This document shows positions 14,231 through 51,564 of a DNA stretch of 57,950 bases, one piece after another (position 1 is the stretch's first letter; each line of letters opens with the position of its first letter). This DNA is from Pseudomonadota bacterium. GTDB taxonomy: Bacteria > Desulfobacterota > Desulfobacteria > Desulfobacterales > Desulfobacteraceae. The position numbers and the translations under genes are program-made. The DNA lies in contig JAHJLN010000056.1 in the NCBI GenBank assembly GCA_018821715.1, forward strand, positions 1 through 57,950, given 5' to 3'. Under the pieces are notes generated by a model, which did no database searches, was not told where the DNA came from, and saw only the letters and a program-made list of their open reading frames with translations.

Positions 14231-14246
14231 AAGTTGTTTTCCTTTG

Positions 14247-32764: not shown

Positions 32765-32894
32765 ATTATCTCTTTTGTTATAGAATTTTTAATATTTTTT
32801 CAGGTTTTCTTTCTAACAGGTTTAATGGAAACAAAAAAGTAAAACATGGAAATTTCTTTTCATTTGTCTTTTAAATTTGCTATGGACAATATCT

Positions 32895-34106
32895 ATGAGA
32901 TTCTATTTTGGCCCTGGGAATAATTCCCTTTCGCATATTTTAAAATGTTTATCCATCATGGATATTTTGTCATCTCGAGGGCATGAGGTTTTTATTGCCA
33001 TAGGTCAAAAATATTCAGGTTTTCTTAAAAAACTGGGAACACCATATTTTATCCTGCCGGATATCCAGGAAACAGATGACTCCGGGTTCCCTTCTTTTAA
33101 ATGGTTTTCCAATCCTAAATATGTTTTGGAGTGCATTAAAAAAGAGACGGAGTTGCTGCGCAGACTGAACCCGGACCGTGCCCTGGGCGTTTTTAATTTT
33201 ACGCTCCAGATATCTGCCGGCATTGCCGGCATCCCGTACGATTCTCTTATCTGTGGCTGCATGCTCAAAGAATCGAAAGATATCCTGGGATTTCATGGTG
33301 ATGAACCGGAAAAGGAAATTCAAAAGGTTAACATACAGACTTTTTTTAATTATGCCACTCAAAAAATGAACAGAGCCCTGGGGGAAATATCTAAAATTAA
33401 AATAAATGATATACGGGATCTTTTAAAAGGCGACATGACCTTTCTATGGGATTTTCCTGAATTTATGCCCTTGCCGTTGACACACAATTTTTTATACCTG
33501 GGACCGATTTCATATCACAACAAGAATTGCCAGAGTATGGATACAGATGAATTTTTTTACACTAAAAATCCTCTTGTTGTCATCTCCTTTGGCACATGTT
33601 CAGGAGACAAGGACGTGCTGGTAAGATTGACAAAAATATGCCTTGAATCAGGATTCGCAGTCTTCATCGCTGCCGGCGGCCAGAAAGCATTCCTGAGCCT
33701 TTTTCAGGCGGAACCAAGGGTGAAGACAAGTCTGTTCACCGACCTGATCCCTATATTACGGAGAGCCTGTCTTTTAATTACCCACGGGGGACAAATAACA
33801 GTGTTTGAAGCATTAAAAGCAAAAGTTCCTGTCCTGGTGATGCCTTTTCAGCCGGAACAGGCCCATAACGGCATTTGCCTTGAGCGTATCGGCTGTGGAG
33901 AATTGTTAATTCCGCCAAAACCCTTTAGAACAGGTTCCAGGGTTTATATCGATGCATTTAATGGGATAAAAGACAATGAAATTGCTGACAGGATTCGCAA
34001 CCTTTCCAAAGATCCACAGACCGCTGAAAATCTTTTAAAAATCAGACATACGCTTGAAAAGTATACGGGTGCCGATCAATTGGCATCTGTATTGGAAAGG
34101 GCATAG
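32895..34106 (+). CDS. UGT/GT1-like glycosyltransferase
   Basis: A 403-residue protein with two Rossmann halves. The N-terminal half begins Arg-Phe-Tyr-Phe-Gly-Pro-Gly with Gly-His-Glu-Val near 35; the C-terminal half has Ile-Ser-Phe-Gly-Thr-Cys near 232 and the sugar-nucleotide motif Thr-His-Gly-Gly-Gln-Ile-Thr-Val-Phe-Glu-Ala-Leu. This places it with UDP-glucuronosyltransferase/MurG-like enzymes that glycosylate small lipophilic molecules. The ATG at 32895 is preferred to an upstream TTG at 32877 because the fold starts there. The fused hydrolase-radical SAM gene begins two bases after its stop, so the two form an operon facing the polyene locus. The acceptor is unknown; the polyene is a candidate. 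Confidence 0.85.
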   Translation: MRFYFGPGNNSLSHILKCLSIMDILSSRGHEVFIAIGQKYSGFLKKLGTPYFILPDIQETDDSGFPSFKWFSNPKYVLECIKKETELLRRLNPDRALGVFNFTLQISAGIAGIPYDSLICGCMLKESKDILGFHGDEPEKEIQKVNIQTFFNYATQKMNRALGEISKIKINDIRDLLKGDMTFLWDFPEFMPLPLTHNFLYLGPISYHNKNCQSMDTDEFFYTKNPLVVISFGTCSGDKDVLVRLTKICLESGFAVFIAAGGQKAFLSLFQAEPRVKTSLFTDLIPILRRACLLITHGGQITVFEALKAKVPVLVMPFQPEQAHNGICLERIGCGELLIPPKPFRTGSRVYIDAFNGIKDNEIADRIRNLSKDPQTAENLLKIRHTLEKYTGADQLASVLERA

Positions 34107-34108
34107 GG

Positions 34109-35875
34109 ATGTCAGTCGGTATTGTCCTGGTTCACGGCTACACAGGGTCAGATCAGGATTTAGCATTTCTTTTTGAAAAACTTTGTTCTTACTATGGATC
34201 AGATTCAGTTATAAACACGTCTTTGCCGTTCCATGACAGGGACAAGGCCCCGAAGTTTGATCAGGATGCGTTTGAGCAGGTTATTTTAAAAGCAGTGAAC
34301 TGTTTTAAAGAGAAAAAGAAAAAACTTGTTCTTGTCGGGTTTTCCACAGGCGGGACACTGCTTCTGTCATGCCTGCGGAAGCATTCGATAATCCCTGATC
34401 TTTTAGTGCTGGCAGGCGTGCCAAAACAGATCGATACCGGTTATATCCAAAGATGGGCAACCCATTGCACCGGGAAACCTCAACCTGATTTCAGTTCCAT
34501 TGCCAGAATGATTTCTGTGATTAATTCAATGGGAAAAATTAAATTTAAAAACAGATTTTTTGTCCTGATCATGAATGGGGAAACAGATGAACTTGTTTTA
34601 AAAGAGGAAGCCTTCAAGTGGGCTGAAAATTTTAAAGGGGAAAAAAGAATTGCCATCATCCCTGATGCCGGGCACCATGTTTTCAAAGATATTTCCAAAC
34701 AGGACATGGCCTCTGATATAATCGTCCGGACAGTTTTTGACCTTACAAACAGGGTGAGAAAAGAATCAAATCAGGTATTGGAGCGATTGGCTGAAATTGA
34801 ACCCAGGGTCAAATCGTTTTTATTAAACTCCCCCACATCTAGGTTCCATTTGTCTCAGTGCCCGGGGGGGAAAAGATTACAAGATGGAAAACCTGATTTT
34901 TCTGAAACCGTATCCTGGGCGCCTGTTTTTGCAAATATTGAAATCACAACACAGTGTAATTTAAAGTGCCGGTTTTGTGCCAGAACAAGGCTTGGCATTA
35001 AAGGCAAAGACATGGCGATATCCCTATATTCAAGAATCCTTGAACTGCTTCCCCATGCCTACAGGATCACCCTGGTGGGCTTGGGGGAACCCCTTCTTCA
35101 CCCGGAGATCATTGAGTTTGTGAAAATAGCGGTTTCAAGGAAAAGAAGGGTGGCTTTGGTCACAAATGCTTCCAATCTTGACCCTGCCATGTCAGAGAAA
35201 TTGATCAATGCAGGACTGGATTCAATCGCATTCAGCATAGATGGTCCAGACCAGATCCTATCGGGAAAATTGAGATATGGAACTGACCTTAAAAAAGTGA
35301 TTGACCATATCCAGCAATTTACAGTATTGGCAGACGCCTTTGATAAACAGATATCAAAGGCTGTGTTTTCCGCGGTCTCAATAATATCCCTGCCGTACCT
35401 TGAGCAGTTGATTGATCTGGTTTCAGGGCTTGGGGTCAATGTTTTAATGCTGTCGGATTTAAATTTTTCATATAATGGTAAAGACTGCCTGCACCAAAAC
35501 ATGGATAAGGAGAAAATTGCAATTTTAAGGAAGGCAATAGCACATTCTTTTTCAAAAAATCTGCCGGTTCTTTCAGTCTACGGTCTGGAAGAATTCGGAT
35601 TAAGACATAGATATCTGCAATTTTTAGCAGCCCCGCCTTCAAAAATCTATGAGCGCCCCAAACTTCATACCCATTGCCTTTCTCCCTGGCAGACCCTGCC
35701 GGTAAATGTGAATGGAGAGGTTTTGATCTGTGATTGTCAACCGGATAAGCGTATCGGTAATCTTTTTTCGGATTCGTTTTCCAACATCTGGAATGGACGT
35801 ATCATGAAACAGCACCGCAGTAAAATGACAGGCCCGGTCCCTCCGGATGCCTGTCGAATCTGTCCACGGTTTTAA
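34109..35875 (+). CDS. Fusion of alpha/beta hydrolase and SPASM-like radical SAM enzyme
   Basis: A 588-residue fusion. Residues 1-210 form an alpha/beta hydrolase of carboxylesterase type: His-Gly-Tyr-Thr-Gly near 9, Ser79 in Gly-Phe-Ser-Thr-Gly-Gly, Asp160 in Gly-Glu-Thr-Asp-Glu and a His at 189-190. After a linker, residues about 275-500 are a radical SAM barrel with Cys283, Cys287 and Cys290 (CxxxCxxC) and Gly-Leu-Gly-Glu-Pro-Leu. The C-terminal 70 residues hold a SPASM-like set of Cys (His-Cys-Leu-Ser, Ile-Cys-Asp-Cys, Ala-Cys-Arg-Ile-Cys) for an extra cluster. All catalytic residues of both halves are present. It might join ester or thioester cleavage to radical modification of one substrate. 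It ends six bases from the convergent B12-radical SAM gene. Confidence 0.88.
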   Translation: MSVGIVLVHGYTGSDQDLAFLFEKLCSYYGSDSVINTSLPFHDRDKAPKFDQDAFEQVILKAVNCFKEKKKKLVLVGFSTGGTLLLSCLRKHSIIPDLLVLAGVPKQIDTGYIQRWATHCTGKPQPDFSSIARMISVINSMGKIKFKNRFFVLIMNGETDELVLKEEAFKWAENFKGEKRIAIIPDAGHHVFKDISKQDMASDIIVRTVFDLTNRVRKESNQVLERLAEIEPRVKSFLLNSPTSRFHLSQCPGGKRLQDGKPDFSETVSWAPVFANIEITTQCNLKCRFCARTRLGIKGKDMAISLYSRILELLPHAYRITLVGLGEPLLHPEIIEFVKIAVSRKRRVALVTNASNLDPAMSEKLINAGLDSIAFSIDGPDQILSGKLRYGTDLKKVIDHIQQFTVLADAFDKQISKAVFSAVSIISLPYLEQLIDLVSGLGVNVLMLSDLNFSYNGKDCLHQNMDKEKIAILRKAIAHSFSKNLPVLSVYGLEEFGLRHRYLQFLAAPPSKIYERPKLHTHCLSPWQTLPVNVNGEVLICDCQPDKRIGNLFSDSFSNIWNGRIMKQHRSKMTGPVPPDACRICPRF

Positions 35876-35881: not shown

Positions 35882-37330
35882 TTATCCCATCCGTTTGTTT
35901 GTGAATGCAAATTTTAAAAACCCGGCCATGTCTCTGATAAATCTTATCCAGCTGTCCGGCGATTTCCAGAGCATTGATACATATCCCATCAAGACTTTTG
36001 TCCGCTTGAAATGGGATTTGTAAAAATCAATAAAAAGAGCATCCATTTTTTGCTTGGTAAGGCCTTTGGGGATAAAAAGGAACTGCATGCAGTCCATTTT
36101 TTCCCAGTCTTCGGTAAATGTTCCTATTTTTTCTCCTTTTTCCTTGATGTCCTTATATATGGGGGAACCTGGAAAAGGCGTGAATTTGGCCAGGTTGAAA
36201 TCATCAATTGGAAGAGAAAAAACATAGGCCTTGCTTTTTTTTATGCTTTCTTCGGATTCGCCTGGAAGTCCCATCATTAAAAGGCCCTTTACACGAATCC
36301 CCGCTTTTTTGATCAAGTGAATTTTATCGCTCATCATTTTAAGATCAGGATTCTGCCTGTGCTGTGCCAGAAGAGTTTCATCCCCTGTCTCAATCCCCAG
36401 GCTGATCATCCAGCAGCCTGCCGCTTTCATGAGTTTGAGCAACTCAAGATCAAGGTGTTCGGCTCTTGCAGCGCAGTTAAAGGTCATTCCAAGGGGTTTT
36501 TGGATCATCATCCGGGCAAAGTCTTCCACCCGGGAACGATTAAAGGTAAACTGATCGTCATAAAAATTGATATGCTGAATATTGAAATTGTCTTTCAAAT
36601 ATTTCAAGTGATTGTAAAGGTATTGAGCAGAATTATATCTAAAGCTTTTTTTAAATACCGACCGATCACAGTAACTGCAGGAATACGGGCATCCCCTGCT
36701 GGAGATACAGCTTGCATTGGGAACTTTGGGATAATTAAATATGGGAAGTTTATAACTTGAAGGATAGCCGGATAGTTTTTCATAAGCAGGATAGGGCAGG
36801 GTATCCAGATCAATCAGGTTATGACGGTATCCTGTGAAGACGACCCTGCCGGTCTTTTTTCTGAAAACAATATTCTTTATTTTTTCAAGATCTGTTTCAT
36901 TTGTCCTTAACAGTTGATGCAGGGTGTGTTCGCCTTCTCCCACCACAACATAATCAATTATCGGGTATGATTCTAATATTTTTTCTTTTAAAGCAGAAAC
37001 ATGAACGCCCCCAAAAACTATTTTGGTTTTGGGGACCATTTTTTTTGCATAGTCAGCAATCCTTATGCCGTCGAGAAAACTGGAGGTAGTGCAGGAAAAA
37101 CCGATAAAAATAGGGGGGTGTTCTTCCAGGGATTTTTTGATCAACGCATCTGATTCCGGGTGAGCATAACAGTCAATAATATGGGAATCGATTTGAAACC
37201 GGTCAAGGTAGGCTGCAATGCTGGCAAGCCCGAGAGGCGGCATGATGTTGGCCTTTCTGGATATGTCTGTTTTTGCATTTGCCAGGTTGTATCCCAAAGG
37301 ATGGATAAACAAAATATTGGGCTGAACCAT
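35882..37330 (-). CDS. Cobalamin-binding radical SAM enzyme 1 (BchE/HpnJ-like)
   Basis: A 482-residue enzyme with an N-terminal B12-binding Rossmann domain (about 1-150; Pro-Pro-Leu-Gly-Leu-Ala, Gly-Gly-Val-His-Val, Val-Gly-Glu-Gly-Glu) and a radical SAM barrel (about 195-400) with Arg-Gly-Cys-Pro-Tyr-Ser-Cys-Ser-Tyr-Cys. Gly-Leu-Pro-Gly-Glu-Ser follows. Relatives methylate, cyclise or rearrange unactivated carbons of tetrapyrroles, hopanoids and polyketides. It is the last gene of the long minus-strand operon, eight bases after the next B12-radical SAM gene, so its substrate is probably the locus product. Confidence 0.88.
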   Translation of the reverse strand: MVQPNILFIHPLGYNLANAKTDISRKANIMPPLGLASIAAYLDRFQIDSHIIDCYAHPESDALIKKSLEEHPPIFIGFSCTTSSFLDGIRIADYAKKMVPKTKIVFGGVHVSALKEKILESYPIIDYVVVGEGEHTLHQLLRTNETDLEKIKNIVFRKKTGRVVFTGYRHNLIDLDTLPYPAYEKLSGYPSSYKLPIFNYPKVPNASCISSRGCPYSCSYCDRSVFKKSFRYNSAQYLYNHLKYLKDNFNIQHINFYDDQFTFNRSRVEDFARMMIQKPLGMTFNCAARAEHLDLELLKLMKAAGCWMISLGIETGDETLLAQHRQNPDLKMMSDKIHLIKKAGIRVKGLLMMGLPGESEESIKKSKAYVFSLPIDDFNLAKFTPFPGSPIYKDIKEKGEKIGTFTEDWEKMDCMQFLFIPKGLTKQKMDALFIDFYKSHFKRTKVLMGYVSMLWKSPDSWIRFIRDMAGFLKFAFTNKRMG

Positions 37331-37338
37331 ATCTTAAC

Positions 37339-38703
37339 CTATTTTTTTTTGGGTTTTTGGGGATGGATGGCCATATCCCATAACAATCCCTTGAAACCGA
37401 ATACTTTTAAAGCTCTCATTCTCATCTGTCCCTGCTCTGGTGGAAAAAACCGATCTTTTTTTCTATGGAAGGCCTCTTTAATCTTTATCTCCATCCAGTT
37501 CTTATCAACATGAGGAGAAATATAATAGCAGGACTTTAACAGATTATTGTTGCAAGAAATAATTTTCTCTTTAACCGCAATTTCATGCAACTTTGTTTTT
37601 GGAAGGATTCGAATGCCTGAAAACACAAAAACAGCACAATTTACCAGCCGTTCGATATTTTTCAACCCCTGGAGAACAGTTGCCGGTGTTTCTTCTGGTC
37701 CGCCAAACATGAAAAAGTGAGCACAAGGGATATCTGCCTTAATACAACTTTCATTAAAACGGAATATATCTTCAAAACTAAAGGATTTGTTAATTCCTTT
37801 TAAGGTTATATCACAAGCCGCATCAGAACCAACTTCCATGGCGTAAAGACCGGAATCTTTTAACAGTTTGAGTTCAGGTTGTTTGATATTTTCAGGCCTG
37901 AAATAGGCAGCCCATTTTATATGGCATTGTTTTTTTATCAATTGCTCAGCTATCATTAGATAATGACCCTGACGGTCATTAAAAATCGCATCTGTAAAAA
38001 ACAAGGCGTCAACATTAAAGTCTTTTTTCAACCGAATCAGATTATCTGCAACAAATTCAGGGGTCTGATACCTGAGTTTTCTTCCTTCAATCAAAGGATA
38101 TGAACAATATTTACACCCATGCGGGCAGCCCCTCTTGGTCTGGTAACTTAACATGCCGCTTTGATCAAAGTAATATGCCACAAGTTTTTTTTCATAAAGC
38201 GGCCGGAAAAATCCATTTTTGTCGATTGGGGTTTCAATGGGATACAGGATTTTTTCTGTTTTAATATTGTTTGAGAGGTTGTCAATCAATTTATTTATCG
38301 AAATTTCACCTTCTCCCACAATTCCGAAATCTGCATTTAAAAATTCCAATATTTGCTCAGGCAGTATTGAAAAACCCGGTCCCCCTAAAATGATAGGGTT
38401 TTGATAAATTTTTTTAATATGGTCAACCAGATGCTTAATGTCGGAAAGATACCAGGGGTTCCCTGGAGAAAGCGAATCCACAGTATCGATATTTCTGATG
38501 GAAATACCGATAAAGTCAGGGTTGAATTCCAAAATGGCAGCGGTTACAGAAAACAACAGGTTGTCAAGGGTTAACAGCAGATCAAGCTGCTTGACCGCAT
38601 GGCCATTCTCCACCAAAGAAGCTGCAACAAGCGCCATCCCCAGCGGATAAACCGGTAAAGGCGCCGTGGTTGTATTTGAAGAAATCAGTAATATCCTGCT
38701 CAT
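37339..38703 (-). CDS. Cobalamin-binding radical SAM enzyme 2 (lipid-biosynthesis type)
   Basis: A 454-residue protein with a B12-like domain (about 1-150) and a radical SAM core with Thr-Lys-Arg-Gly-Cys-Pro-His-Gly-Cys-Lys-Tyr-Cys near 190. The start (Ile-Ser-Ser-Asn-Thr-Thr, Val-Tyr-Pro-Leu-Gly), Ile-Ser-Ile-Arg-Asn-Ile-Asp, Leu-Gly-Gly-Pro-Gly-Phe-Ser and Val-Ala-Tyr-Tyr-Phe match my memory of the family named "lipid biosynthesis B12-binding/radical SAM protein", described from ladderane-type lipid clusters. That match needs an HMM search. The canonical Asp-x-His-x-x-Gly cobalamin motif is not obvious. It overlaps the next upstream gene by four bases. Confidence 0.85.
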   Translation of the reverse strand: MSRILLISSNTTTAPLPVYPLGMALVAASLVENGHAVKQLDLLLTLDNLLFSVTAAILEFNPDFIGISIRNIDTVDSLSPGNPWYLSDIKHLVDHIKKIYQNPIILGGPGFSILPEQILEFLNADFGIVGEGEISINKLIDNLSNNIKTEKILYPIETPIDKNGFFRPLYEKKLVAYYFDQSGMLSYQTKRGCPHGCKYCSYPLIEGRKLRYQTPEFVADNLIRLKKDFNVDALFFTDAIFNDRQGHYLMIAEQLIKKQCHIKWAAYFRPENIKQPELKLLKDSGLYAMEVGSDAACDITLKGINKSFSFEDIFRFNESCIKADIPCAHFFMFGGPEETPATVLQGLKNIERLVNCAVFVFSGIRILPKTKLHEIAVKEKIISCNNNLLKSCYYISPHVDKNWMEIKIKEAFHRKKDRFFPPEQGQMRMRALKVFGFKGLLWDMAIHPQKPKKK

Positions 38704-39962
38704 GACGGCTTGGTCTTTTTGAAAGACCTTTTTTCTCGCGGGTTATATCTTCTGTAAGTTTTATCAAGGATTTCCTTTTTGATAACCTTGAAAAACAATT
38801 CACCCATTTTTGTCTGGTATCCACCATTGGAATAAAATGTATCCCAGGCATAGTTATAGAGTTCTTCTAATTTTTCACACGTCATGTTTTTGGGTTGGAA
38901 GACAACCTTATCACACGTGTAATCAATCCAGTTGTTGCTTAAGATCCGTTTTTGTTCTTTATATTGTTTTCGGATGGGAGACTTTGGAAACGGTGTCAAA
39001 ATTGTAAATTCAGCCAGGTCGATTTTTATTTGAGTCAAAAAATCAACAAGGGTTTTAATATAGGTTTCATCGTGATCATCCGTTCCCAGAAGAATGGTGC
39101 CTTCCACGCCGATACCGTGATCGTGAAGTCGTTTAATTCTGTTCTCGATAACCGCTGACGTATCAAATACTGCCTGGTAGACATACCAGCACCCGGCTTC
39201 GGCAGCAAGCTTGAGGACCTGGTCATCATCCATCAAAGGGTGGGAAACCCATTTTTTCTTTAACGGTTTCATGGCTGTGAACAGTTCAATAAGCCACGCC
39301 TTATCGTGTGCCAGTGAGTTGTCCACAATAAAAAGCCGGTTGTTTGGTATGGATTCCATCTCTTTTATAACGGTTTCAACAGGTCTGGGTCTGAATTGTC
39401 TGCCGCCTAAGAATCCGTTACAGCAAGGAAAACAATTGAATCTGCACCCCCGGGAAGCATGGACAAGATCAAGCATCTGTATCCCTCTGTAATTATACAG
39501 GTCTCTTTTTAAAATATCTCTTTTTGCTGTACCAACCAGACTGATATCAGGGAAAATGTTCATGTAATCATAGACTTTTTTCATCTTTTTTTGCCTAAAG
39601 TCACTGAAAACCTCTCCCATCCGGCCTTCGGCTTCTCCAAGGAACACCGAGTCTGCATGACGTTCAACCTCCTGGGAATGCAGCATGACGGCAATACCGC
39701 CAAACAGTACGGGGATCCCCATTCCCCTGTATCGATCGGCAATTTCAAATGCCCGGGGAAGCTGACAGGTCAGCATGACCGAGAGCCCTGCAATATCAAT
39801 GTCAGGATCATACACAAGCGGCTGGACGTTTTCATCAATGAAATCAACCTCAACATATTCCGGGAGTGTGGCCGCAAAAACAACAGGGCCATGGGGAGGG
39901 AGGTGAAACTGGGTTTGTTTTTCCAGCCGTGGCCAGGTGGGATATATCAATTGCATTTTCAT
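38700..39962 (-). CDS. Cobalamin-binding radical SAM enzyme 3
   Basis: A 420-residue protein. The N-terminal domain (about 1-130) resembles the B12-binding fold (Leu-Ile-Tyr-Pro, Pro-Asp-Ile-Asp-Ile-Ala-Gly-Leu-Ser, Phe-Gly-Gly-Ile-Ala, Leu-Gly-Glu-Ala-Glu-Gly). The radical SAM motif is Arg-Gly-Cys-Arg-Phe-Asn-Cys-Phe-Pro-Cys-Cys, CxxxCxxC with an extra Cys. The ATG at 39962 is preferred to 40004 because AAGGA lies about eight bases upstream and the fold starts there. It then begins 20 bases after the chain-length-factor gene. It is diverged from the other two, so it probably does a different step. Confidence 0.82.
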   Translation of the reverse strand: MKMQLIYPTWPRLEKQTQFHLPPHGPVVFAATLPEYVEVDFIDENVQPLVYDPDIDIAGLSVMLTCQLPRAFEIADRYRGMGIPVLFGGIAVMLHSQEVERHADSVFLGEAEGRMGEVFSDFRQKKMKKVYDYMNIFPDISLVGTAKRDILKRDLYNYRGIQMLDLVHASRGCRFNCFPCCNGFLGGRQFRPRPVETVIKEMESIPNNRLFIVDNSLAHDKAWLIELFTAMKPLKKKWVSHPLMDDDQVLKLAAEAGCWYVYQAVFDTSAVIENRIKRLHDHGIGVEGTILLGTDDHDETYIKTLVDFLTQIKIDLAEFTILTPFPKSPIRKQYKEQKRILSNNWIDYTCDKVVFQPKNMTCEKLEELYNYAWDTFYSNGGYQTKMGELFFKVIKKEILDKTYRRYNPREKRSFKKTKPS

Positions 39963-39982
39963 GGTGTCAGTCCTTGTAATCT

Positions 39983-40690
39983 TCATATTTTTCCAAGGGT
40001 GCATTTCTGGGCAAGATCAAAAAGCCCGGTTATTTTATGGTCATTTTGGTAATAAATACGTTCCAGTGATATTGATTTAACAGATCCATAGGAATGAAGC
40101 GCTTTTTTTTCAATGACAAAGAAAAGGGAACCGGGTTGAACGGCAGGGGAGATAGGACAGGTCGTTTGGATATCCAAATTGCATACACCGCACAGAACCG
40201 TATCTGATTCACCGGAATCAATAATATCAAGCGCCAGAACGAGCCCGGTTAACCCATTGTTTCCGTCTTCATTAATGACAAAGCTTTCTCCTGTCAGGCC
40301 GAAGTAGATACAGGCTTCTCCCAGAAAACAGGAGGCAAGGGTATAGGCGAAAATAGCCGGGCTTGGCACTTTTTTAACCATTGTTTCCTGGAAGTGTATA
40401 TCTGTTTCAAGACAACCTGTAATCGTTGAAGCAATTATGCTGATATTTTTTTTATCTTCATCTTCTTTTATCCCGGCATCCTTCATGGCAAATGCAATGG
40501 CTGCAAATCCAAGTTTTGAAAACGCATCCATCCGGCCAAAGGGTTTATAGGGGTGATTGAGTATGTCGTTTCTTTTGATTGAGGGTAAGGATGCCTTCCG
40601 GTCAAATCGTTGAATCCGGGTTGCATGTCCCATTGATTCCTTTGATACCCATCCGATTCCGGTTATAAATGCTTCCATTTTTTTTCTCAT
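39983..40690 (-). CDS. Ketosynthase-like chain-length factor (ApeC-type)
   Basis: A 235-residue protein resembling only the N-terminal half of a ketosynthase, as in the short beta-ketoacyl-synthase family of aryl-polyene loci. The site that in ketosynthases carries the nucleophilic Cys reads Asn-Glu-Asp-Gly-Asn-Asn-Gly-Leu, so no active Cys. In aryl-polyene systems such a protein pairs with a true ketosynthase and sets chain length. Its ATG overlaps the neighbouring ketosynthase stop as ATGA, which favours 1:1 production of the pair. Confidence 0.82.
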   Translation of the reverse strand: MRKKMEAFITGIGWVSKESMGHATRIQRFDRKASLPSIKRNDILNHPYKPFGRMDAFSKLGFAAIAFAMKDAGIKEDEDKKNISIIASTITGCLETDIHFQETMVKKVPSPAIFAYTLASCFLGEACIYFGLTGESFVINEDGNNGLTGLVLALDIIDSGESDTVLCGVCNLDIQTTCPISPAVQPGSLFFVIEKKALHSYGSVKSISLERIYYQNDHKITGLFDLAQKCTLGKI

Positions 40691-41811
40691 GCTTTTTTTA
40701 AAATAACGGCAGCATTAATGCCGCCAAAACCTGAATTGGTAGTTAAAATGCAATCACCCTTTATGGGCCGGGCATCCGGGTAGATTACTTTTTCAGCGCC
40801 TTTTCCCGGATCAAGAAATCCAAAAGTACCGGGCATCATTCCTTCTAAGAGCATTTTTACGCAAAGAGCGATTTCAATACCACCGGCAGCGCCAAGTGTG
40901 TGACCGATCGCCCCTTTTATGGAATTGGCAATCACCTGATCCGGATTAAACATGGCGTGAAGAACCGTTAACTCCATTGCATCATTGTATGCTGTGCCTG
41001 TTCCGTGGGTGTTGACAGCAGGGATATGTTCCGGCAAAATTCCGGCTTTTTTGCATGCTGTTGTGATGGCAAGTTTTAACCCGTAACCGTCTTTTGCCGG
41101 TGCTGTCAAGTGGGTCGCGTCATTGGCAATTCCCCAGCCGGCTATCCTACAGAGGGGGGACAAGCCTTGAGACCTTGCTCTTTTTTCACTCATCAGCAGT
41201 ATTGCAGCAGCGCCTTCCCCAAGGGTCAGCCCATTTCTATGCTTGTCAAAGGGTTTTGCAGGTTCATCAGACATGGCCCCAAGGGCTGAAAAACCTGAAA
41301 ATACAAATTCTGAAACAATGTCCATGCAGCAGATTAAAACCGAATCAACAACTCCTCTTTGTATTAAAGCAGCCCCTTTTGCAACGGCAATGGTTGATGA
41401 GGCGCATGCGGAATTGATATTGATTCCCTTGTTTTTTAATTTTAGCTTTAAGGCAATATATTCAGTCAGGTCAGATAACAAAAGGTTTTTGCCGCAGATT
41501 TCAGGTTCGGCTATTTTTTTTCCAAGCATGTCAATACCCGCTTTGGTAGAAGCACTGATCAGAAAAGTATCATTTTCAATTTCCCCAAGCTGATCTATCA
41601 GCAGATCTGATAACTGAAAAATCAAGGAGGATTTTTTTGTGTGATCAAGGTCTGGAATGATTCCCCCAAATGGGCTTGCATAGCATTGCGTGTTAAATCT
41701 TGTGATAGTGCTGATGCCTGATTTTTGATCCGTCAGACCGTTGTACAGTGAGTGTAAGTCCGGTCCCAGGGAGGTAATAACGCATGCTTTAGTGATGCAG
41801 ACAGGAGTCAT
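40687..41811 (-). CDS. Beta-ketoacyl-ACP synthase (partner of the chain-length factor)
   Basis: A 374-residue condensing enzyme extending a growing acyl chain with malonyl-ACP. The triad is complete: Cys in Ser-Ala-Cys-Ala-Ser-Ser near 136, His in Asn-Thr-His-Gly-Thr-Gly-Thr, and His in Ile-Gly-His-Thr-Leu-Gly-Ala-Ala-Gly. Start 41811 is chosen because it overlaps the thioesterase stop as ATGA; an ATG seven codons earlier would overlap more. Immediate coupling to the chain-length factor suggests the heterodimer seen in aryl-polyene type II PKS. Confidence 0.92.
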   Translation of the reverse strand: MTPVCITKACVITSLGPDLHSLYNGLTDQKSGISTITRFNTQCYASPFGGIIPDLDHTKKSSLIFQLSDLLIDQLGEIENDTFLISASTKAGIDMLGKKIAEPEICGKNLLLSDLTEYIALKLKLKNKGININSACASSTIAVAKGAALIQRGVVDSVLICCMDIVSEFVFSGFSALGAMSDEPAKPFDKHRNGLTLGEGAAAILLMSEKRARSQGLSPLCRIAGWGIANDATHLTAPAKDGYGLKLAITTACKKAGILPEHIPAVNTHGTGTAYNDAMELTVLHAMFNPDQVIANSIKGAIGHTLGAAGGIEIALCVKMLLEGMMPGTFGFLDPGKGAEKVIYPDARPIKGDCILTTNSGFGGINAAVILKKA

Positions 41812-42269
41812 AAAAGCTTGCCGGCCTTCCATTTATCACAAAATTTTTTAAAAAAGGCAGGCTGGGTCAGGAAAAGTTCAAAATCCGGGTTCAACATCAT
41901 CTGGACAACGTATCCGGTTGCGGCAGTCTGGCCTTTTTTATTCCGGATAATATATTCACTGTTTATCCTGGAAGCTTCAGAGTAATGAAGAATGCCTTCT
42001 ATTGTAATCTCTTCTTTGAATCTTAAGGGAGTTATAAAGTCGACATGTACGGTTTTTATCGGTGCCAGAATGCCATGGGCGTACAGATCCATATATCCGA
42101 TGCCGTAACGGTCTGAAAGCTGTATCCTGGCATCTTCAAAAAAGCTGGTATAATGTCCGTGCCATGCAATCTTGAGCATGTCAACTTCTTCAAACCGGAT
42201 CTGCCTTTTAACCATCCCTCTTAACGGCTCCGGATCATCAGCTCTTTTTTTGAAATAGGGTTTTTTCAT
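41808..42269 (-). CDS. Hotdog-fold acyl-CoA/ACP thioesterase (ApeK-like)
   Basis: A 153-residue protein with the 4-hydroxybenzoyl-CoA thioesterase hotdog fold: Arg-Phe-Glu-Glu-Val-Asp-Met-Leu-Lys-Ile-Ala-Trp-His-Gly-His-Tyr near 25, containing the Asp commonly used for catalysis, then Tyr-Gly-Ile-Gly-Tyr and Phe-Ile-Thr-Pro-Leu-Arg. In aryl-polyene loci such an enzyme edits or releases acyl thioesters. It lies five bases downstream of the acyltransferase gene. Confidence 0.88.
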   Translation of the reverse strand: MKKPYFKKRADDPEPLRGMVKRQIRFEEVDMLKIAWHGHYTSFFEDARIQLSDRYGIGYMDLYAHGILAPIKTVHVDFITPLRFKEEITIEGILHYSEASRINSEYIIRNKKGQTAATGYVVQMMLNPDFELFLTQPAFFKKFCDKWKAGKLL

Positions 42270-42274: not shown

Positions 42275-43084
42275 TTATATCGTCTCTTCATCCATTTGTT
42301 TTATGGACTGTTTCATTAGATTTTTGACATGGTTTTTCAGTGCGATGTGTTTCATCTCGCCCTGAAATTGATCTGGAAAAACCGGGTCCAGTATTTTCAT
42401 TTTTATTCTTGCAGGTGCAAGAAAATATCGATTTGGCGGTAAGAGGATCTGGGTACCGGTGAGACAAACCGGTATCACCGGTACATTGTTTTCAATGGCC
42501 AGCTTAAAAGCACCGGAATAAAAGTGTAATAAATTTTTATCTTTGCTCCTGTGGCCTTCCGGGAAAAACAGGATGGAACTGTTGTTTTTGATATTTTTTT
42601 TTGAAATTTCCAATGTTTTGTCCCAGGGAAAGGATTCAATGTCCAGATAACCGGCAAGTTTCATGAAGATATTGTAAAAGGGTATGTTAAACGGCCATGC
42701 TCTCACGGCACAGCAGATGTCACTGACTCGTACCATATTTATACAATATGTATCAAAAAAAGAGCGGTGATTCACAACAAAAATACCCGGGGTTTTAAGT
42801 CGGCCCCCATGAAGCTGGGGGGGGGTGAAAACAACAAACGGGCTGAGCAGAAACTGACAGACCCTGGCGTAAATCCAGATGCACTGACGTGTAAGATATG
42901 TTGTGGAGTCTCCCAGGATAAACTTCATAAAAAGGAATGCAAATGGGAAAAGCGCCATTCCAACAGCTGTCCACAGGAGTATCAAAGGAATTGCAATGCA
43001 GTTCATCAGCAGAATATGGGCATAGGGTGTCACTTTTTTGTTTAACCGCTTTTTAGATAAATTGGATAGGTGCATGTTAGCCAT
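42275..43084 (-). CDS. PlsC-like 1-acylglycerol-3-phosphate-type acyltransferase
   Basis: A 269-residue membrane-associated acyltransferase with a hydrophobic N-terminal stretch (about 25-55). Motif I is Val-Asn-His-Arg-Ser-Phe-Phe-Asp (H(x)4D) near 100, and motif III is Phe-Phe-Pro-Glu-Gly-His-Arg-Ser near 174. It should attach the acyl chain to a lipid acceptor, as proposed for aryl polyenes anchored in the outer membrane. Its ATG uses the last base of the upstream ketosynthase stop (TAATG). Confidence 0.9.
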   Translation of the reverse strand: MANMHLSNLSKKRLNKKVTPYAHILLMNCIAIPLILLWTAVGMALFPFAFLFMKFILGDSTTYLTRQCIWIYARVCQFLLSPFVVFTPPQLHGGRLKTPGIFVVNHRSFFDTYCINMVRVSDICCAVRAWPFNIPFYNIFMKLAGYLDIESFPWDKTLEISKKNIKNNSSILFFPEGHRSKDKNLLHFYSGAFKLAIENNVPVIPVCLTGTQILLPPNRYFLAPARIKMKILDPVFPDQFQGEMKHIALKNHVKNLMKQSIKQMDEETI

Positions 43085-44325
43085 TAAATACCATTAAAAT
43101 TTAAAACAATCGCAGCATTGGTGCCCCCGAAACCAAATGAATTTGAAATGGCAAAGTCTATCTGGGCTTGCCTTGCGGTATGAATGACATTAATTTGAGG
43201 ACAGTTGTCACTTAAGCTTGAAAAATTAATATTTGGTGCTATGAATTTATTTTGCGCCATAAGAATCGTATAGACCACTTCGCTGGCACCAGACATCCAG
43301 CATTCATGTCCTGTCATGGATTTTGTGGATGAAACAGGTGTGGCCGGGCCAAATACTTTGTTGATGGCAATGGCTTCAGCAAGATCTCCTGTTGGGGTTG
43401 ATGTCGCATGAGCACTGATATAGTCTATCTTTTGAGGTGATATGCCTGCATCTCCCAGAGCATTTTCCATGGCTTTTGCAGATGCTTTTGCATTTGGTTC
43501 TGAAAGATTTTTATCAATACCGGATGAGAACCCGTACCCGTCTATTATGCAGTAAATATTGGCGCCACGTGAAAGGGCGTGATCAAGATCCTCTATGATA
43601 ATGGAGGCAGCGCCCCCGCCCGGGACAAGTCCGTTTCGTTCTTTGTCAAAAGGTCTTGAGGCCTTCCCGGGTTCATCTGTCCTTGATGAAAAGGCATTCA
43701 GAGAATCAAAGCTGGCCATTGACATCCAGTTTGTTTCCTGGGCGCCCCCGGCGATGATAATATCCTGCAGTCCGCTTCTGATCAACATTAATGCCTGACC
43801 AATGACATGGGCGCCGCTTGCGCAAGCAGCACTGATCGTCCAGTTTGCGCCACGGGTTTTAAAGTGGGAGGCAAGATTCATGGTGATTGTTGAGTTCATG
43901 GCTCTGAAGACATAGCCGGAACCAATATAATGGGTTTCGTTATATTTTTTTGCAATGTCAACAGATTCAACACCGGCTTTAATGGTGCTGTCATTGCCGA
44001 AGATAATGCCGCATCTGTCGCTTTGAATCAATTCCCGTGAAAGCCTGGAATCTTTTACTGCGTCAGTTGCCGCGGCAAAGGAGAAAAGTGCCGGCTCACA
44101 CATGGTCCTTAAAGCTTTTTTGGTGAGGCCATAGTTTTTCGGTGAAAATCCATTTATTTTTGATGTCAAAGGAGATTTAAACCCCAGATTTTTTCTTTGC
44201 TCGTCATAAACAATTCCGGACCGGCCATTTTTCAAGGCAGATGCAACCGATTCCACATCATTGCCCAGGCATGAAATAATGCCGATTCCGGTTATTGCAG
44301 CTTTATTTAGTCTGTTTTTTTTCAT
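43084..44325 (-). CDS. Beta-ketoacyl-ACP synthase (FabF-like)
   Basis: A 413-residue condensing enzyme with an intact triad: Cys in Ala-Ala-Cys-Ala-Ser-Gly, His in Ser-Ala-His-Ala-Thr-Ser-Thr-Pro, and His in Met-Thr-Gly-His-Glu-Cys-Trp-Met-Ser-Gly-Ala. The last replaces the usual Leu-Gly-Ala-Ala after the His with Cys-Trp-Met-Ser-Gly-Ala, seen in FabB-type relatives. It may do an early or separate elongation step. It overlaps the acyltransferase gene by one base; the FabG-type gene lies 67 bases upstream. Confidence 0.92.
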   Translation of the reverse strand: MKKNRLNKAAITGIGIISCLGNDVESVASALKNGRSGIVYDEQRKNLGFKSPLTSKINGFSPKNYGLTKKALRTMCEPALFSFAAATDAVKDSRLSRELIQSDRCGIIFGNDSTIKAGVESVDIAKKYNETHYIGSGYVFRAMNSTITMNLASHFKTRGANWTISAACASGAHVIGQALMLIRSGLQDIIIAGGAQETNWMSMASFDSLNAFSSRTDEPGKASRPFDKERNGLVPGGGAASIIIEDLDHALSRGANIYCIIDGYGFSSGIDKNLSEPNAKASAKAMENALGDAGISPQKIDYISAHATSTPTGDLAEAIAINKVFGPATPVSSTKSMTGHECWMSGASEVVYTILMAQNKFIAPNINFSSLSDNCPQINVIHTARQAQIDFAISNSFGFGGTNAAIVLNFNGI

Positions 44326-44392: not shown

Positions 44393-45136
44393 TCACAGAA
44401 TCCCGCCATTAATACCAATCACCTGGCCTGTAATATATCCTGCATCTTTTGAACATAAAAAAAGAACAGTGGCGGCAACTTCTTCGGGCTTACCAAGTCT
44501 GCCGGCCGGGATTGTTTTTGCCAGTTCCTCTAAGGGCAGACCGTCAACCATTTCGGTTTCTATAAAACCCGGTGCAACGGCATTTACCGTAATGTTGCGT
44601 TTTGCAATCTCCCGGGCAAGTGCTTTGGTTGCCCCGATAAGACCGGCTTTTGATGCTGAGTAATTCACTTGCCCTGCCTGGCCGATCTGGCCTGATGTTG
44701 AAGAGATGTTGATGATTCTTCCAAACCGTTTTGGCAGCATATTTTTAACAATAAGTCGCGTTACATTAAAAAAACCGGTCAGATTTGTATCCAGAACGTT
44801 TTGCCAATTGCCTTTTTTCATCCAGACCATGAGCATGTCATCCCTGATTCCGGCATTGTTTACCAGAATATCTATTTTACCCTTTTCTTTTATGATTTTT
44901 TCAATGGCTTTTTCAGATGCCTCCTGGCTGCGGACATCAAACTGAAGAAGCGCCCCGTCTCCTCCGTTGCTGATAATATCTTCAAGCACGGCGGCAGCTT
45001 TTTTTTGGTTTGAATTGAAATTTAAATATACAAACCGTCCGGATCGGGCAAGCGCTTTGGCTATCGCTTTTCCAATCCCTCTGCTGGCCCCTGTTACCAG
45101 AGCGATTTGAACCGTGTCGGTTTTTGTTTCAGGCAT
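44393..45136 (-). CDS. 3-oxoacyl-ACP reductase (FabG-type ketoreductase)
   Basis: A 247-residue SDR that reduces each beta-keto intermediate with NADPH. It has Gly-Ala-Ser-Arg-Gly-Ile-Gly-Lys, Asn-Asn-Ala-Gly-Ile-Arg-Asp, Ser near 140 and Tyr-Ser-Ala-Ser-Lys, and the C-terminal Gly-Gly-Ile-Leu. The ATG at 45136 is chosen because AAAGGAG lies seven bases upstream; an earlier ATG (45157) has no such site. It is the only ketoreductase in the locus, so it should serve all cycles. Confidence 0.95.
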   Translation of the reverse strand: MPETKTDTVQIALVTGASRGIGKAIAKALARSGRFVYLNFNSNQKKAAAVLEDIISNGGDGALLQFDVRSQEASEKAIEKIIKEKGKIDILVNNAGIRDDMLMVWMKKGNWQNVLDTNLTGFFNVTRLIVKNMLPKRFGRIINISSTSGQIGQAGQVNYSASKAGLIGATKALAREIAKRNITVNAVAPGFIETEMVDGLPLEELAKTIPAGRLGKPEEVAATVLFLCSKDAGYITGQVIGINGGIL

Positions 45137-45162
45137 GTTTTCTCCTTTATCCTTCAAAATTA

Positions 45163-46398
45163 TTAAACCTGCAGTTTATTTTCTTTTTTTAAAACCAGTG
45201 TCGCATTTATTCCCCCAAACGCAAAGTTGCTTGTCATGACAGTGTTAACAGGTGTATCCATCTTTTTTTGCACATGAAAAATCCCGTCACACTCAGGATC
45301 AATGGTTTCAAGATTCAGGGTGGGAATTATGACATTGTGTTCCATCATCAACAGACAGAAAATTGCCTCCATAACTCCGCTTGCGGCTAAGGTGTGGCCT
45401 GTAAATCCCTTGGTCGCACTGACAGGAACGGCATCATTGCAAAGCTGTCTGATCGCCCGTGATTCGGCAATATCCCCAAGTTTTGTACCTGTGGCATGGG
45501 CATTGATATAATCGATTTCATTAATAGAGCATTCGGCTGATGCCAAGGCACCTTTCATACATCTGAGCATCCCTTCGGTCCGGGGCGAAGTCATGTGTTC
45601 CCCATCGCAGCAGGTGTTGTAACCAATGATTTCTCCGAAAATTTTTGCGCCTCTTTCTTTTGCATGCACATATTCTTCTAAAATGACGGTGCCGGCACCT
45701 TCGCTGACAACCAGGCCGTCCCTGGCAATGTCAAACGGCCTTGGCGTTATTGAAGGAGAGTTTCCAAATTTTTTTGACGCTGCATGAAGCACTTCAAACA
45801 CCCCGGCAGTTGAATGATGTAATTCATCGGCCCCGCCGCAGATCATGATTTTTTGATATCCGTTTTTAATGATTTCAAATCCTTCTCCGATGGCCTGGGT
45901 GCTGGTTGCACAGGCACAGCAGGGGGAAAGGACCCGGCCTTTTGTTTTCAGCATGGCAGCCACATTGGCAGCAACGGAATGGCTCATGATTTTCATAAAA
46001 GTGGTGCCTTCCAGCATGGAAATCCCACCCGTTCTTAAGAAATCATTGAATGTTTTTTCAATGATCTTTCCCGAGCCTGTTGTTGAACCCATTGCCACAC
46101 CGGTATCAGAAGATGAAATTGTTTTTCCATCAAGGACGGACTCGGCAATGGCATCCAGGGCTGACAGTGCAGCCATAATCGCCATTGAACCCATTGTTCT
46201 TCTGTCTTTGCGGTGAATTCGCTTTTCATCATATCCGCCGCAGGAGCCTGCAATATGAACCGTTAAATCCTTGATCCCTTCCCAGGATTTGATGGGCTTA
46301 ATGCCGGACCGGTTGTTTAAAAGCGAATTGAATACATCCTGTTTTGTGTTTCCAATGGGTGAAATAATCCCCATACCTGTAATGACGACTCTTTTCAT
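45163..46398 (-). CDS. Beta-ketoacyl-ACP synthase
   Basis: A 411-residue ketosynthase with Cys in Cys-Cys-Ala-Cys-Ala-Thr-Ser-Thr (the third Cys aligns with the nucleophile), His in Ala-His-Ala-Thr-Gly-Thr-Lys-Leu-Gly-Asp and His in Phe-Thr-Gly-His-Thr-Leu-Ala-Ala-Ser. The doubled Cys before the active one is uncommon. Its ATG overlaps the stop of the upstream FAD-enzyme gene by four bases (ATGA). Confidence 0.92.
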   Translation of the reverse strand: MKRVVITGMGIISPIGNTKQDVFNSLLNNRSGIKPIKSWEGIKDLTVHIAGSCGGYDEKRIHRKDRRTMGSMAIMAALSALDAIAESVLDGKTISSSDTGVAMGSTTGSGKIIEKTFNDFLRTGGISMLEGTTFMKIMSHSVAANVAAMLKTKGRVLSPCCACATSTQAIGEGFEIIKNGYQKIMICGGADELHHSTAGVFEVLHAASKKFGNSPSITPRPFDIARDGLVVSEGAGTVILEEYVHAKERGAKIFGEIIGYNTCCDGEHMTSPRTEGMLRCMKGALASAECSINEIDYINAHATGTKLGDIAESRAIRQLCNDAVPVSATKGFTGHTLAASGVMEAIFCLLMMEHNVIIPTLNLETIDPECDGIFHVQKKMDTPVNTVMTSNFAFGGINATLVLKKENKLQV

Positions 46399-50331: not shown

Positions 50332-51533
50332 ATTCTTGAAAATACCAATGCTGAATTATTGCCGCCAAAAGCAACGGATTGGGATATTGCTGCTGTGCAG
50401 GACAGGTTTTGAGTCTTTGCCACTGGTGAGCTTTTCAGTGTGTCATCCCTGTCTGAAAACCCAATGCTTGCCGGAATTTTTTCATTCATAAGGCTATGTA
50501 TTGTAAATGCGGCCTCTATTGCACCGGCAGCACCCAATGTATGACCGGTATAGCCTTTGGTGGAAAAAAAGGGAATACCAGGTAATATTTCGGATAAGAC
50601 CAGGTCTTCAACTTTGTCGTTATCCTTTGTTCCCGTGCCGTGGGCATTGATAAAACCGATGTCAGAGCTGTCCAGTCCGCTTTGGGCTATGGCATGTCTT
50701 AATGCTTTTTTAAGACCTTGGCCGTCAGGTTTTGGGGCTGTCAGGTGATAGGCATCACATGCTGAACCATATCCTGCGGCAAAACATTTGTGATGGGAAG
50801 GCATTGACGTCTTTTGGGATACCGGTTCAAGGATCAGGGCGGCAGCACCTTCACCAAGGTTCAGCCCGTTTCTTTTTTTATCAAATGGTTTGCATGGATC
50901 ACTATCGGTTATCATCAGGGAAATGAAACCATTATAGGTTACCTTGCAAAGCTCATCCGTACCGCCTGCAATGACAAGATCACAAAGACCTGCCTGAAGC
51001 CATAAGATCCCGATACCAATGGCATCTGTTCCTGAAGCACAGGCATTGACAACCGTCTGGGCTGGTCCGCTAAGATTAAATTCTTTGACAATACAGGCAG
51101 AAGGATTGCTGTTTAAAAATCGTTTTACAGGGTCCATGCCAGGCGTTTTGCCCTGTTTGTAATCCATATAAAATTGATCATTGTTTAATGTACAGCCCAC
51201 TGTTGTTCCCATGCAGACGCCGACACGCCTGTTTTTAAGATCACGGGGATCAATTGCTGCGTCCTCCAGGGCCTGGTACACTGCAGCAATTCCCAATTGT
51301 GCGGTTAATGTCAGGTCTTTATGGTTTAAGGAAACCTGTGAATCAAAAGTATCACAGACCTGGAAAACAGGATATTTAACCGGGTGATTTGTTAAAAACC
51401 GGTTGGTAAAGGTGGCGTTTCTTTGGCCGGCAAACATATGGTTCATGCTGTCATTAATATTTAGACCCAGTGCACTGATACAGCCTGTTCCTGAAACACT
51501 CACCCTGATATTTTGCGCATCTGTTTTTTGCAA
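50328..51533 (-). CDS. Beta-ketoacyl-ACP synthase
   Basis: A ketosynthase of about 401 residues with Cys in Asn-Ala-Cys-Ala-Ser-Gly-Thr, His in Ala-His-Gly-Thr-Gly-Thr-Lys and His in Tyr-Thr-Gly-His-Thr-Leu-Gly-Ala-Ala. It is closest by eye to the ketosynthase at 40687-41811 (Leu-Thr-Ala-Pro, Gly-Leu, same spacing), so one may be a duplicate with a different chain length. The reading frame opens at 51596, but TTG 51533, preceded by AAGGATGGGG, starts just before the fold and after the acyltransferase stop, so I prefer it. Confidence 0.88.
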   Translation of the reverse strand: MQKTDAQNIRVSVSGTGCISALGLNINDSMNHMFAGQRNATFTNRFLTNHPVKYPVFQVCDTFDSQVSLNHKDLTLTAQLGIAAVYQALEDAAIDPRDLKNRRVGVCMGTTVGCTLNNDQFYMDYKQGKTPGMDPVKRFLNSNPSACIVKEFNLSGPAQTVVNACASGTDAIGIGILWLQAGLCDLVIAGGTDELCKVTYNGFISLMITDSDPCKPFDKKRNGLNLGEGAAALILEPVSQKTSMPSHHKCFAAGYGSACDAYHLTAPKPDGQGLKKALRHAIAQSGLDSSDIGFINAHGTGTKDNDKVEDLVLSEILPGIPFFSTKGYTGHTLGAAGAIEAAFTIHSLMNEKIPASIGFSDRDDTLKSSPVAKTQNLSCTAAISQSVAFGGNNSALVFSRI

Positions 51534-51564
51534 TAGGTCCCCATCCTTTGTTTTCGCCTGGTGT

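Follow-up and report, generated by a model that had tools for sequence, protein, structure and literature searches.

The locus described here raises the question of what three consecutive cobalamin-type radical SAM enzymes are doing at the end of an operon resembling those for aryl polyenes. To our knowledge, standard flexirubin and aryl-polyene loci do not have three such enzymes. In the literature searched (titles and abstract openings, with subscription papers lying mostly outside), no radical SAM trio was described for an aryl-polyene-type locus and no known product was met for any such locus. The window, i.e. the whole stretch of DNA analysed, comprises 57,950 nucleotides of contig JAHJLN010000056.1 (assembly GCA_018821715.1, Desulfobacteraceae), and its relevant genes are collected in Table 1. 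An earlier note, made from the sequence alone, had placed three tandem, diverged genes (here rSAM_A, rSAM_B and rSAM_C) on the operon's strand at 35882..39962, at the end of the operon, and this arrangement is confirmed. The trio closes an 18-gene minus-strand operon in which the intergenic gaps do not exceed 67 bp, and a promoter-sized gap ahead of the trio is absent. Between positions 35500 and 45500 neither promoter-like matches (20 vs 21.4 +/- 5.0 in shuffled sequences) nor terminator-like matches (14 vs 12.4 +/- 3.8) are in excess. The genes rSAM_A and rSAM_B are 8 bp apart, rSAM_B and rSAM_C overlap by 4 bp, and 20 bp separate rSAM_C from the upstream ketosynthase (KS) gene.

Table 1. 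Genes of the operon and its convergent neighbours (positions in the window)
Feature	Position	Strand	Remarks
UDPGT/GT28-type glycosyltransferase	32877..34106	+	paired with the hydrolase-radical SAM/SPASM fusion
alpha/beta-hydrolase-radical SAM/SPASM fusion	34109..35875	+	convergent with rSAM_A
rSAM_A	35882..37330	-	482 aa, B12-binding/radical SAM; closest curated models HpnJ and BchE, scores far under cut-offs
rSAM_B	37339..38703	-	454 aa, member of TIGR04072; cobalt-face Arg as in TsrM
rSAM_C	38700..39962	-	diverged B12-type/radical SAM; no curated family match
KSb	39983..40690	-	half-length ketosynthase without active-site Cys, chain-length-factor-like
KSa	40687..41832	-	ketosynthase with Cys-His-His
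4HBT-type thioesterase	41808..42269	-	
1-acylglycerol-3-phosphate acyltransferase-like	42275..43084	-	
KS3, ketosynthase	43084..44325	-	
FabG-type reductase, FlxB-like	44393..45157	-	326.9 bits, cut-off 340
KS4, ketosynthase	45163..46398	-	
CrtI/CrtD-like FAD oxidase	46395..47948	-	
MMPL/RND-type exporter	47899..50331	-	
KS5, ketosynthase	50328..51596	-	
LpxL-type acyltransferase	51565..52485	-	
Family 2 glycosyltransferase with DUF2062	52475..53644	-	
MIO-type aromatic amino acid ammonia-lyase	53654..55249	-	candidate substrates Tyr, Phe or His
AMP-dependent ligase, FlxY-like	55294..56637	-	442.3 bits, cut-off 520
HEAT-repeat protein	56647..57426	-	operon's first gene on the contig; partial relatives in the same place in L043, L135, L136

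All three proteins have a B12-type region at the N-terminus and carry the CX3CX2C motif, which is invariant within each family alignment. In Pfam, the B12-binding and Radical_SAM domains score 80.2 and 81.9 bits in rSAM_A and 57.0 and 52.8 bits in rSAM_B. The values for rSAM_C (29.8 and 20.8 bits) lie under the gathering thresholds of 32.1 and 29.5, which makes it a diverged member; in a genome-wide Pfam search its B12 region reaches 32.6 bits, narrowly above the cut-off of 32.1. The rSAM_C reading frame occupies 38700-40004 (434 aa), and an internal Met codon at 39962 is the start in the aligned relatives, giving 420 aa. Selenocysteine in rSAM_C was considered and rejected, as the in-match TGA seen in two genomes is the stop codon closing the gene. 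Pairwise identity within the trio is only 20-24%, and the three proteins represent separate families, each spanning phyla; the trio therefore does not stem from recent duplication. Its most conserved member is rSAM_C.

The middle gene had been likened to the lipid-biosynthesis B12/radical SAM family, and indeed rSAM_B matches TIGR04072 ('rSAM_ladder_B12') with 612.9 bits along model positions 1-442 of 443 (cut-off 360). The proposed profile search of the whole trio placed this one protein in the family, while rSAM_A (92.5 bits) and rSAM_C (38.2 bits) stayed under the same cut-off. The scores of rSAM_A against HpnJ (186.6 bits, cut-off 577.6) and BchE (178.5 bits, cut-off 481.35) do not place it in either family, and no NCBIfam model matched rSAM_C above its cut-off. 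A dehydration resembling that of the radical SAM diol dehydratase AprD4 (6fd2; 16-18% identity in fold alignments) was considered for rSAM_C and dropped: AprD4 ranks top for the models of both rSAM_C and rSAM_A, so the ranking may only reflect a common compact scaffold; chains of BchE, HpnJ and HpnR were not among the matches listed, which carries no information about them. The AprD4 family model gives rSAM_A 77.9 and rSAM_B 67 bits, far under its cut-off of 500.

The closest solved relative of rSAM_B is the tryptophan C2-methyltransferase TsrM (6wte, 173.5 bits), which aligns along most of its length. Arg69 of TsrM, located below the cobalt, is conserved as R70 in 20 of 20 rSAM_B-type proteins and in all eight proteins compared from genomes positive for hydrazine synthase (HZS). 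This arginine has been linked to methyl transfer, according to the accessible text of the reports (PMC8992657, PMC13331322), and at the cobalt face of rSAM_B it suggests the same reaction. On the other hand, the position of TsrM Glu273 at the unique iron (TsrM numbering, counted along the TsrM/rSAM_B alignment) is taken by V, I, L or T in all 28 proteins. Since Glu273 is not conserved, rSAM_B need not act like TsrM, and the complete TsrM mechanism was rejected for it; its score against the TsrM family TIGR04428 (107.4 bits) is also well below the cut-off of 500. Taking this step alone, the likeliest role of rSAM_B, at somewhat less than even odds, is that of a C-methyltransferase that depends on methylcobalamin and modifies an sp2 carbon.

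The gene order was followed in 80 named loci, which are the best 80 of at least 459 relatives, so that the sample tilts toward near relatives; they overlap with the family genomes (L061 is G053 and L054 is G044, for example). Eight loci without 1.3 kb upstream and five without 1.5 kb downstream were excluded from the respective adjacency counts. Within these best 80, rSAM_C and rSAM_B are adjacent in 65 of the 72 loci with room upstream, and rSAM_A adjoins rSAM_B in 31 of the 75 with room downstream. Enough sequence on both sides was available in 67 of the best 80, which divide into 27 with the C-B-A tandem, 34 with C-B and no adjacent rSAM_A, and six with neither; three near relatives with room available (L035, L039, L045) have no rSAM_A adjoining rSAM_B. 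KSb is found in 52 of the 59 loci of the same set that have an adjacent rSAM_C and 2.2 kb upstream. Matches were accepted from 495 bits for rSAM_C (next 298) and from 580 bits for rSAM_A (next 523), lower ones being treated as other families. Among 395 genomes of the phylum, 26 have a strong rSAM_A (at least 743 bits), and rSAM_C is present in 24 of these, within 4 kb in 12. Another 21 have rSAM_A at 580-668 bits; rSAM_C occurs in 16 of them and not in five.

The order C-B, with or without A, behind KS-CLF genes is newly seen here to recur across phyla, in loci of Desulfobacterota, Desulfuromonadales, Nitrospirota, Lentisphaerae and Omnitrophota. Carriers among isolates include Geothermobacter hydrogeniphilus HR-1 (C-B-A) as well as Desulfosediminicola flagellatus IMCC35005 and Desulforhopalus singaporensis DSM 12130 (both C-B). 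This recurrence speaks against the idea that at least one of the trio acts outside the pathway, in cobalamin, lipid head group or hopanoid metabolism, and shares the transcript only. That idea could draw on the second-best curated family of rSAM_B, BzaD, which serves to make the lower ligand of B12 (184.7 bits, cut-off 450), on HpnJ as the best family of rSAM_A, and on C-bearing genomes in which A and B are absent or sited elsewhere. We give it only a slim chance. The conserved order favours the earlier suggestion that a single product passes through the three enzymes in turn, though this step goes beyond the order itself; methylation, cyclisation and cross-bonding, the outcomes named in the note, are likewise conjectural. 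The hydrolase-radical SAM/SPASM fusion is found within such clusters elsewhere too and probably belongs to the pathway.

Parts of the cluster are located elsewhere. ACPs, dehydratases and LolA missing from the operon are on another contig of the same genome (C424), where ACPs, a half-KS, PagL, ApeI/ApeP-like dehydratases, DUF3261 and LolA are seen. In this genome the ApeI/ApeP-like dehydratases were seen solely as C424 relatives at 46% and 57%, and those of the relative L136 score 25.4 bits for ApeP (gathering 27) and 25.1 for ApeI (gathering 28.5). Among solved chains, the ammonia-lyase comes closest to entries for tyrosine aminomutase, some of which bear the label histidine ammonia-lyase (320 bits); histidine ammonia-lyases follow. 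A lyase match occurs in only two of the 395 phylum genomes, in one of them 2.6 Mb from rSAM_C, and this rarity means that an aryl starter is not general. A role of rSAM_A as partner of the lyase was dropped, given the 26 phylum genomes with a strong rSAM_A, and is also undercut by L050 and L095, which have the lyase and no rSAM_A in the stretch examined. In the 34 loci with at least 9 kb on each side, where a lyase may still sit beyond 10 kb, it was found in six of 13 C-B-A, none of 19 C-B and both neither-adjacent loci, the pattern that had suggested such a partnership.

The earlier note had connected the trio with ladderanes, pointing to a resemblance between candidate ladderane genes of anammox bacteria and a cluster in Desulfotalea psychrophila. 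Such synteny with Kuenenia stuttgartiensis is indeed on record in the accessible text of Rattray 2009 (PMC2649909), so that this kind of cluster is already known. The connection was examined in 75 genomes of an anammox-containing class, 42 of them HZS-positive by a Pfam match to hydrazine synthase; two of the 42, G549 and G550, are perhaps not anammox, as they have 11 and 16 matches, most of them to proteins of greater length. The 42 HZS-positive genomes yielded orthologs of neither rSAM_A nor rSAM_C. Within the 75, rSAM_C occurs in three and rSAM_A in two (plus a fragment in a third), exclusively in genomes in which no hydrazine synthase turned up. Of the 42, 21 have B-type relatives (300-430 bits), and one protein of an HZS-positive genome passes TIGR04072 at 440 bits, as rSAM_B does; of the three enzymes, the B type alone is shared. 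Relatives of KS, FabG, CrtI, FlxY and MMPL are likewise common to the window cluster and anammox genomes. These shared components are what would favour ladderane-like chemistry, in which a polyene would acquire cyclobutane or other fused rings through the radical enzymes, as is assumed to happen in anammox bacteria. The missing A and C orthologs, the cobalt-face arginine of rSAM_B and the lack of ladderanes in D. psychrophila, as given in the accessible text (PMC2649909), make this very improbable. The trio probably decorates a polyene lipid and not ladder-shaped lipids of the anammox type.

D. psychrophila contained C31:8 and C31:9 hydrocarbons according to the same text, which brings up a PUFA or C31 polyene hydrocarbon pathway, as proposed by Rattray 2009, with the CrtI-like oxidase of the operon and the radical SAM enzymes as anaerobic desaturases. 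In that text, however, the cluster is linked to the hydrocarbons by inference (PMC2649909), and the ammonia-lyase, the FlxY-like ligase, the KS-CLF pair, LolA and MMPL suit an exported aryl polyene better, so we regard a hydrocarbon product as unlikely.

Our main reading, to which we assign a probability of roughly 0.5, is that the window holds the 3' portion of a type II PKS locus for the anaerobic formation of an aryl-polyene-type product, which is anchored in the membrane and undergoes oxygen-independent radical tailoring, with C-methylation by rSAM_B. Gene content and order, conservation, the motifs and the family of rSAM_B are observed; the starter, the polyene nature of the chain, the order of the steps and the reaction of each trio member we infer as follows. 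The MIO ammonia-lyase and the FlxY-like ligase would provide and load an aryl-acrylate starter, and the ketosynthases, FabG and hot-dog dehydratases would assemble a conjugated chain attached to dedicated ACPs. Oxygen-free tailoring by the three radical enzymes could act on the chain while it is bound to ACP or once it is complete, rSAM_C and rSAM_A adding radical reactions such as methylation, oxidation or the closing of a ring, and the acyltransferases, glycosyltransferase, LolA and MMPL pump would place the product in the envelope. The reading draws on the tight operon, the parts of aryl-polyene and flexirubin type, the conserved adjacencies and the TsrM-like arginine. Against it stand the replaced Glu273, the Flx scores under their cut-offs, the rarity of the lyase, the borderline B12 score of rSAM_C, the near relatives without rSAM_A beside rSAM_B, and genomes that have B and neither C nor A, or A distant from C. 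Several radical SAM reactions in an oxygen-free route to lipids of this type would represent new enzymology.

A bolder proposal, which we hold to be rather doubtful, is that KSa-KSb-rSAM_C-rSAM_B forms an old, phylum-spanning anaerobic module for a class of polyene not seen so far, which would be anchored in the membrane and either C-methylated or ring-closed, and that the TIGR04072 protein shared with anammox bacteria is a cobalamin methyltransferase (Arg-capped cobalt, open radical SAM site) and not the ring-closer. If so, the search for the ladderane ring-former moves elsewhere, and both lipids, or intermediates on the way to them, should contain SAM-derived carbon. The split of the radical enzymes, with B common with anammox bacteria and C and A not found there, would be a guide to ladderane versus other-lipid enzymes, and the conserved Arg70 offers a concrete prediction that can be checked on the enzyme in common.

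Among known systems, the FASII clusters of K. stuttgartiensis and D. psychrophila, as described in the accessible text (PMC2649909), are alike in combining several divergent KS, radical SAM enzymes including the TIGR04072 kind, a CrtI-like oxidase, a phenylacetyl-CoA-ligase-like gene and a large membrane protein. They differ in that rSAM_A and rSAM_C orthologs were not found in HZS-positive genomes, and the ammonia-lyase of the window cluster has no mention in that text (term count 0). Predicted 'ladderane' clusters are also reported from several non-anammox phyla, without a known product, in the accessible text of PMC9902471. Flexirubin loci, as represented by the NCBIfam Flx models, share the FlxB-like reductase, FlxY-like ligase and MIO ammonia-lyase; the window locus adds the radical SAM trio, and its Flx scores all lie under the equivalog cut-offs (FlxA 458.3 bits against 700; FlxB and FlxY in Table 1). 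The ape loci in their standard composition have in common with it ApeI- and ApeP-like dehydratases, LolA, DUF3261, FabG, LpxL- and AGPAT-type acyltransferases, MMPL, a thioesterase and the KS-CLF pairing of a Cys-bearing KS with a Cys-less partner, here KSa and KSb; the ApeI and ApeP scores under the gathering values, the ammonia-lyase, the CrtI-like oxidase and the radical SAM enzymes set the window locus apart. AmcF-AmcG likewise pairs a full KS with a Cys-less protein of half length, where AmcG, a KS partner without functional motifs, belongs to the cispentacin KS-cyclisation factor (accessible text of PMC10698177). KSa and KSb might accordingly resemble this pair and form a five-membered ring for later modification by the radical enzymes, but the AmcF and AmcG models match weakly (KSa 204.3 bits, cut-off 325; KSb 21.8 bits, cut-off 80) and are outscored by FabF models for both proteins, and we find such a cyclisation quite improbable. 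The window cluster is, moreover, larger than that of AmcF-AmcG, with a reductase, several KS and an exporter.

The three radical SAM genes rSAM_A, rSAM_B and rSAM_C are a real and conserved multi-enzyme extension of an anaerobic aryl-polyene-type locus. They close the operon, as the earlier note had it, with three ORFs of 482, 454 and 434 codons, and the claim that they are diverged from one another was borne out by pairwise identities of 20-24%. Each product has the CX3CX2C motif and a B12-type N-terminal region. rSAM_C, 420 aa long when started at 39962, where its aligned relatives start, is the most diverged; it fell below both Pfam cut-offs in the Pfam search, and its B12 region scored 32.6 bits against a cut-off of 32.1 in the genome-wide search. 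The earlier note had also asked whether a promoter separates the trio from the operon. Gene spacings are -50 to +67 bp throughout, so there is no promoter-size gap ahead of the trio, and matches to consensus promoters and terminators occurred at the level of shuffled sequence.

Features of the window and their coordinates
Feature	Position	Strand	Remark
Thiamine salvage set (ThiD-, ThiE-, ThiM-like) and ABC transporter	11026-15717	-	recognised by eye from translations
Glycosyltransferase	32877-34106	+	convergent with trio, paired with fusion
Alpha/beta-hydrolase-radical SAM/SPASM fusion	34109-35875	+	fourth radical enzyme, 6 bp from trio
rSAM_A	35882-37330	-	trio
rSAM_B	37339-38703	-	trio
rSAM_C	38700-39962	-	trio
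KSb	39983-40690	-	half-length ketosynthase
Operon	57426 to 35882	-	closed by trio

Upstream of the trio are four ketosynthases with Cys-His-His (KSa, KS3, KS4 and KS5), FabG, a thioesterase, two acyltransferases, a CrtI-like oxidase, an MMPL exporter, a GT2-DUF2062 protein, an MIO ammonia-lyase and a FlxY-like ligase. KSb lacks the active-site Cys and lies beside a full-length ketosynthase; the AmcF-AmcG cyclising pair of cispentacin, as described in PMC10698177, shows the same pairing as KSa-KSb. The cluster reaches the contig end, the window being the entire contig. Another contig of the same genome, C424 (locus L152, 384-5700), carries relatives of the genes missing from the window, namely two ACPs, a half-ketosynthase, PagL, ApeI- and ApeP-like dehydratases, DUF3261 and LolA. 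Their order is that found beside the operon in the relatives L135 and L136, and they are apparently the remainder of the cluster, split off by the contig break.

Within the family, 23 of 86 genomes had rSAM_B matches, and 20 neighbourhoods (L034-L053) were retrieved. In all 14 loci with rSAM_B of at least 56% identity (L034-L047) rSAM_C adjoins rSAM_B, and in 10 of them so does rSAM_A; L035, L039 and L045 have no rSAM_A beside rSAM_B despite room for it, and in L040 the contig ends. Of the remaining six, L048 and L049 lack C and have A and B at separate places, L050-L052 have B only and L053 has C-B. In 84,980 genomes of named species, a scan gave at least 459 relatives. Among the best 80 of these, C lies immediately before B in 65 of the 72 loci that have room for it, A immediately follows B in 31 of 75 with room, and C-B-A stand together in 27 of 67. 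A KSb relative is present in 52 of the 59 of these best loci having C beside B and 2.2 kb upstream. Among the taxa in the record titles are Desulfobacterota, Desulfuromonadales, Nitrospirota, Lentisphaerae, Omnitrophota and 'Brocadiaceae' bins, and where the trio stands side by side, C is the member closest in identity to its counterpart in the window.

In the phylum sample rSAM_C (at least 495 bits; next match 298) was found in 54 of 395 genomes and strong rSAM_A (at least 743 bits) in 26, 24 of which also have rSAM_C, within 4 kb in 12. Further C-positive genomes have A or B elsewhere or arranged otherwise. Five loci (L153, L154, L160, L165, L168) are arranged differently: rSAM_C adjoins a distant ammonia-lyase relative (31-33% identity) and has no rSAM_B next to it, and relatives of thioesterase, GT2 or MMPL genes are near.

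The fusion facing the trio probably belongs to the pathway. Relatives of the glycosyltransferase-fusion pair lie inside such clusters in four of the best 80 of at least 459 loci (L074, L086, L102, L112); they share a contig with rSAM_C in genomes G328 and G438 and are on a separate one in G159. All four fusion-bearing genomes among the 395 (own included) have rSAM_C, with a chance of 3e-4 if independent, or 2e-3 without the window's own genome, genome relatedness being ignored.

The closest solved relative of rSAM_B is the tryptophan C2-methyltransferase TsrM (173.5 bits), whose Arg69 blocks the lower cobalt face, according to PMC8992657 and PMC13331322. This residue aligns with Arg70 of rSAM_B and is conserved without exception across 20 rSAM_B and eight proteins from six genomes with the anammox marker hydrazine synthase (HZS). 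Glu273, by which TsrM keeps SAM away from its iron-sulfur cluster, is absent in all 28 of these proteins. From these residues we infer that rSAM_B is a putative cobalamin methyltransferase whose radical site is open. The models nearest to rSAM_A are HpnJ and BchE, with scores far under the cut-off, and rSAM_C matched no curated family. AprD4 is the best structural match of both the rSAM_C AlphaFold model (pLDDT 87.3) and the rSAM_A model, and little on function therefore follows.

Of the proposed tie to ladderanes and anammox bacteria, the link to anammox genomes held for one gene kind of the three. In PMC2649909 the Kuenenia and Desulfotalea clusters are syntenic, and C31:8 and C31:9 hydrocarbons and no ladderanes are given for Desulfotalea. 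In the class of genome G480, 42 of 75 genomes were HZS-positive by Pfam HZS_alpha. Orthologs of rSAM_C (at least 788 bits; next 261) occur in three of the 75 and of rSAM_A (at least 705 bits; next 396) in two, one match being interrupted by a stop codon, a third genome having a fragment; all three genomes are HZS-negative and have rSAM_B of at least 567 bits. Neither A nor C orthologs were found in any of the 42 HZS-positive genomes, whereas rSAM_B matches of 300-430 bits occur in 33 of the 75, 21 of them HZS-positive. This distribution suggests that, as far as these genomes show, the B kind is connected with anammox and A and C are not. Of three B-type proteins of HZS-positive genomes scanned with TIGR04072, the lipid biosynthesis B12-binding/radical SAM model (cut-off 360 bits), one passed with 440 bits and two stayed under it (315.5 and 323.2). 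The neighbours of the passing protein, ligase-, FabG-, ACP-, MMPL- and CrtI-like, resemble the Kuenenia genes listed in PMC4790861. The trio locus is new as a variant, its kind being already in print.
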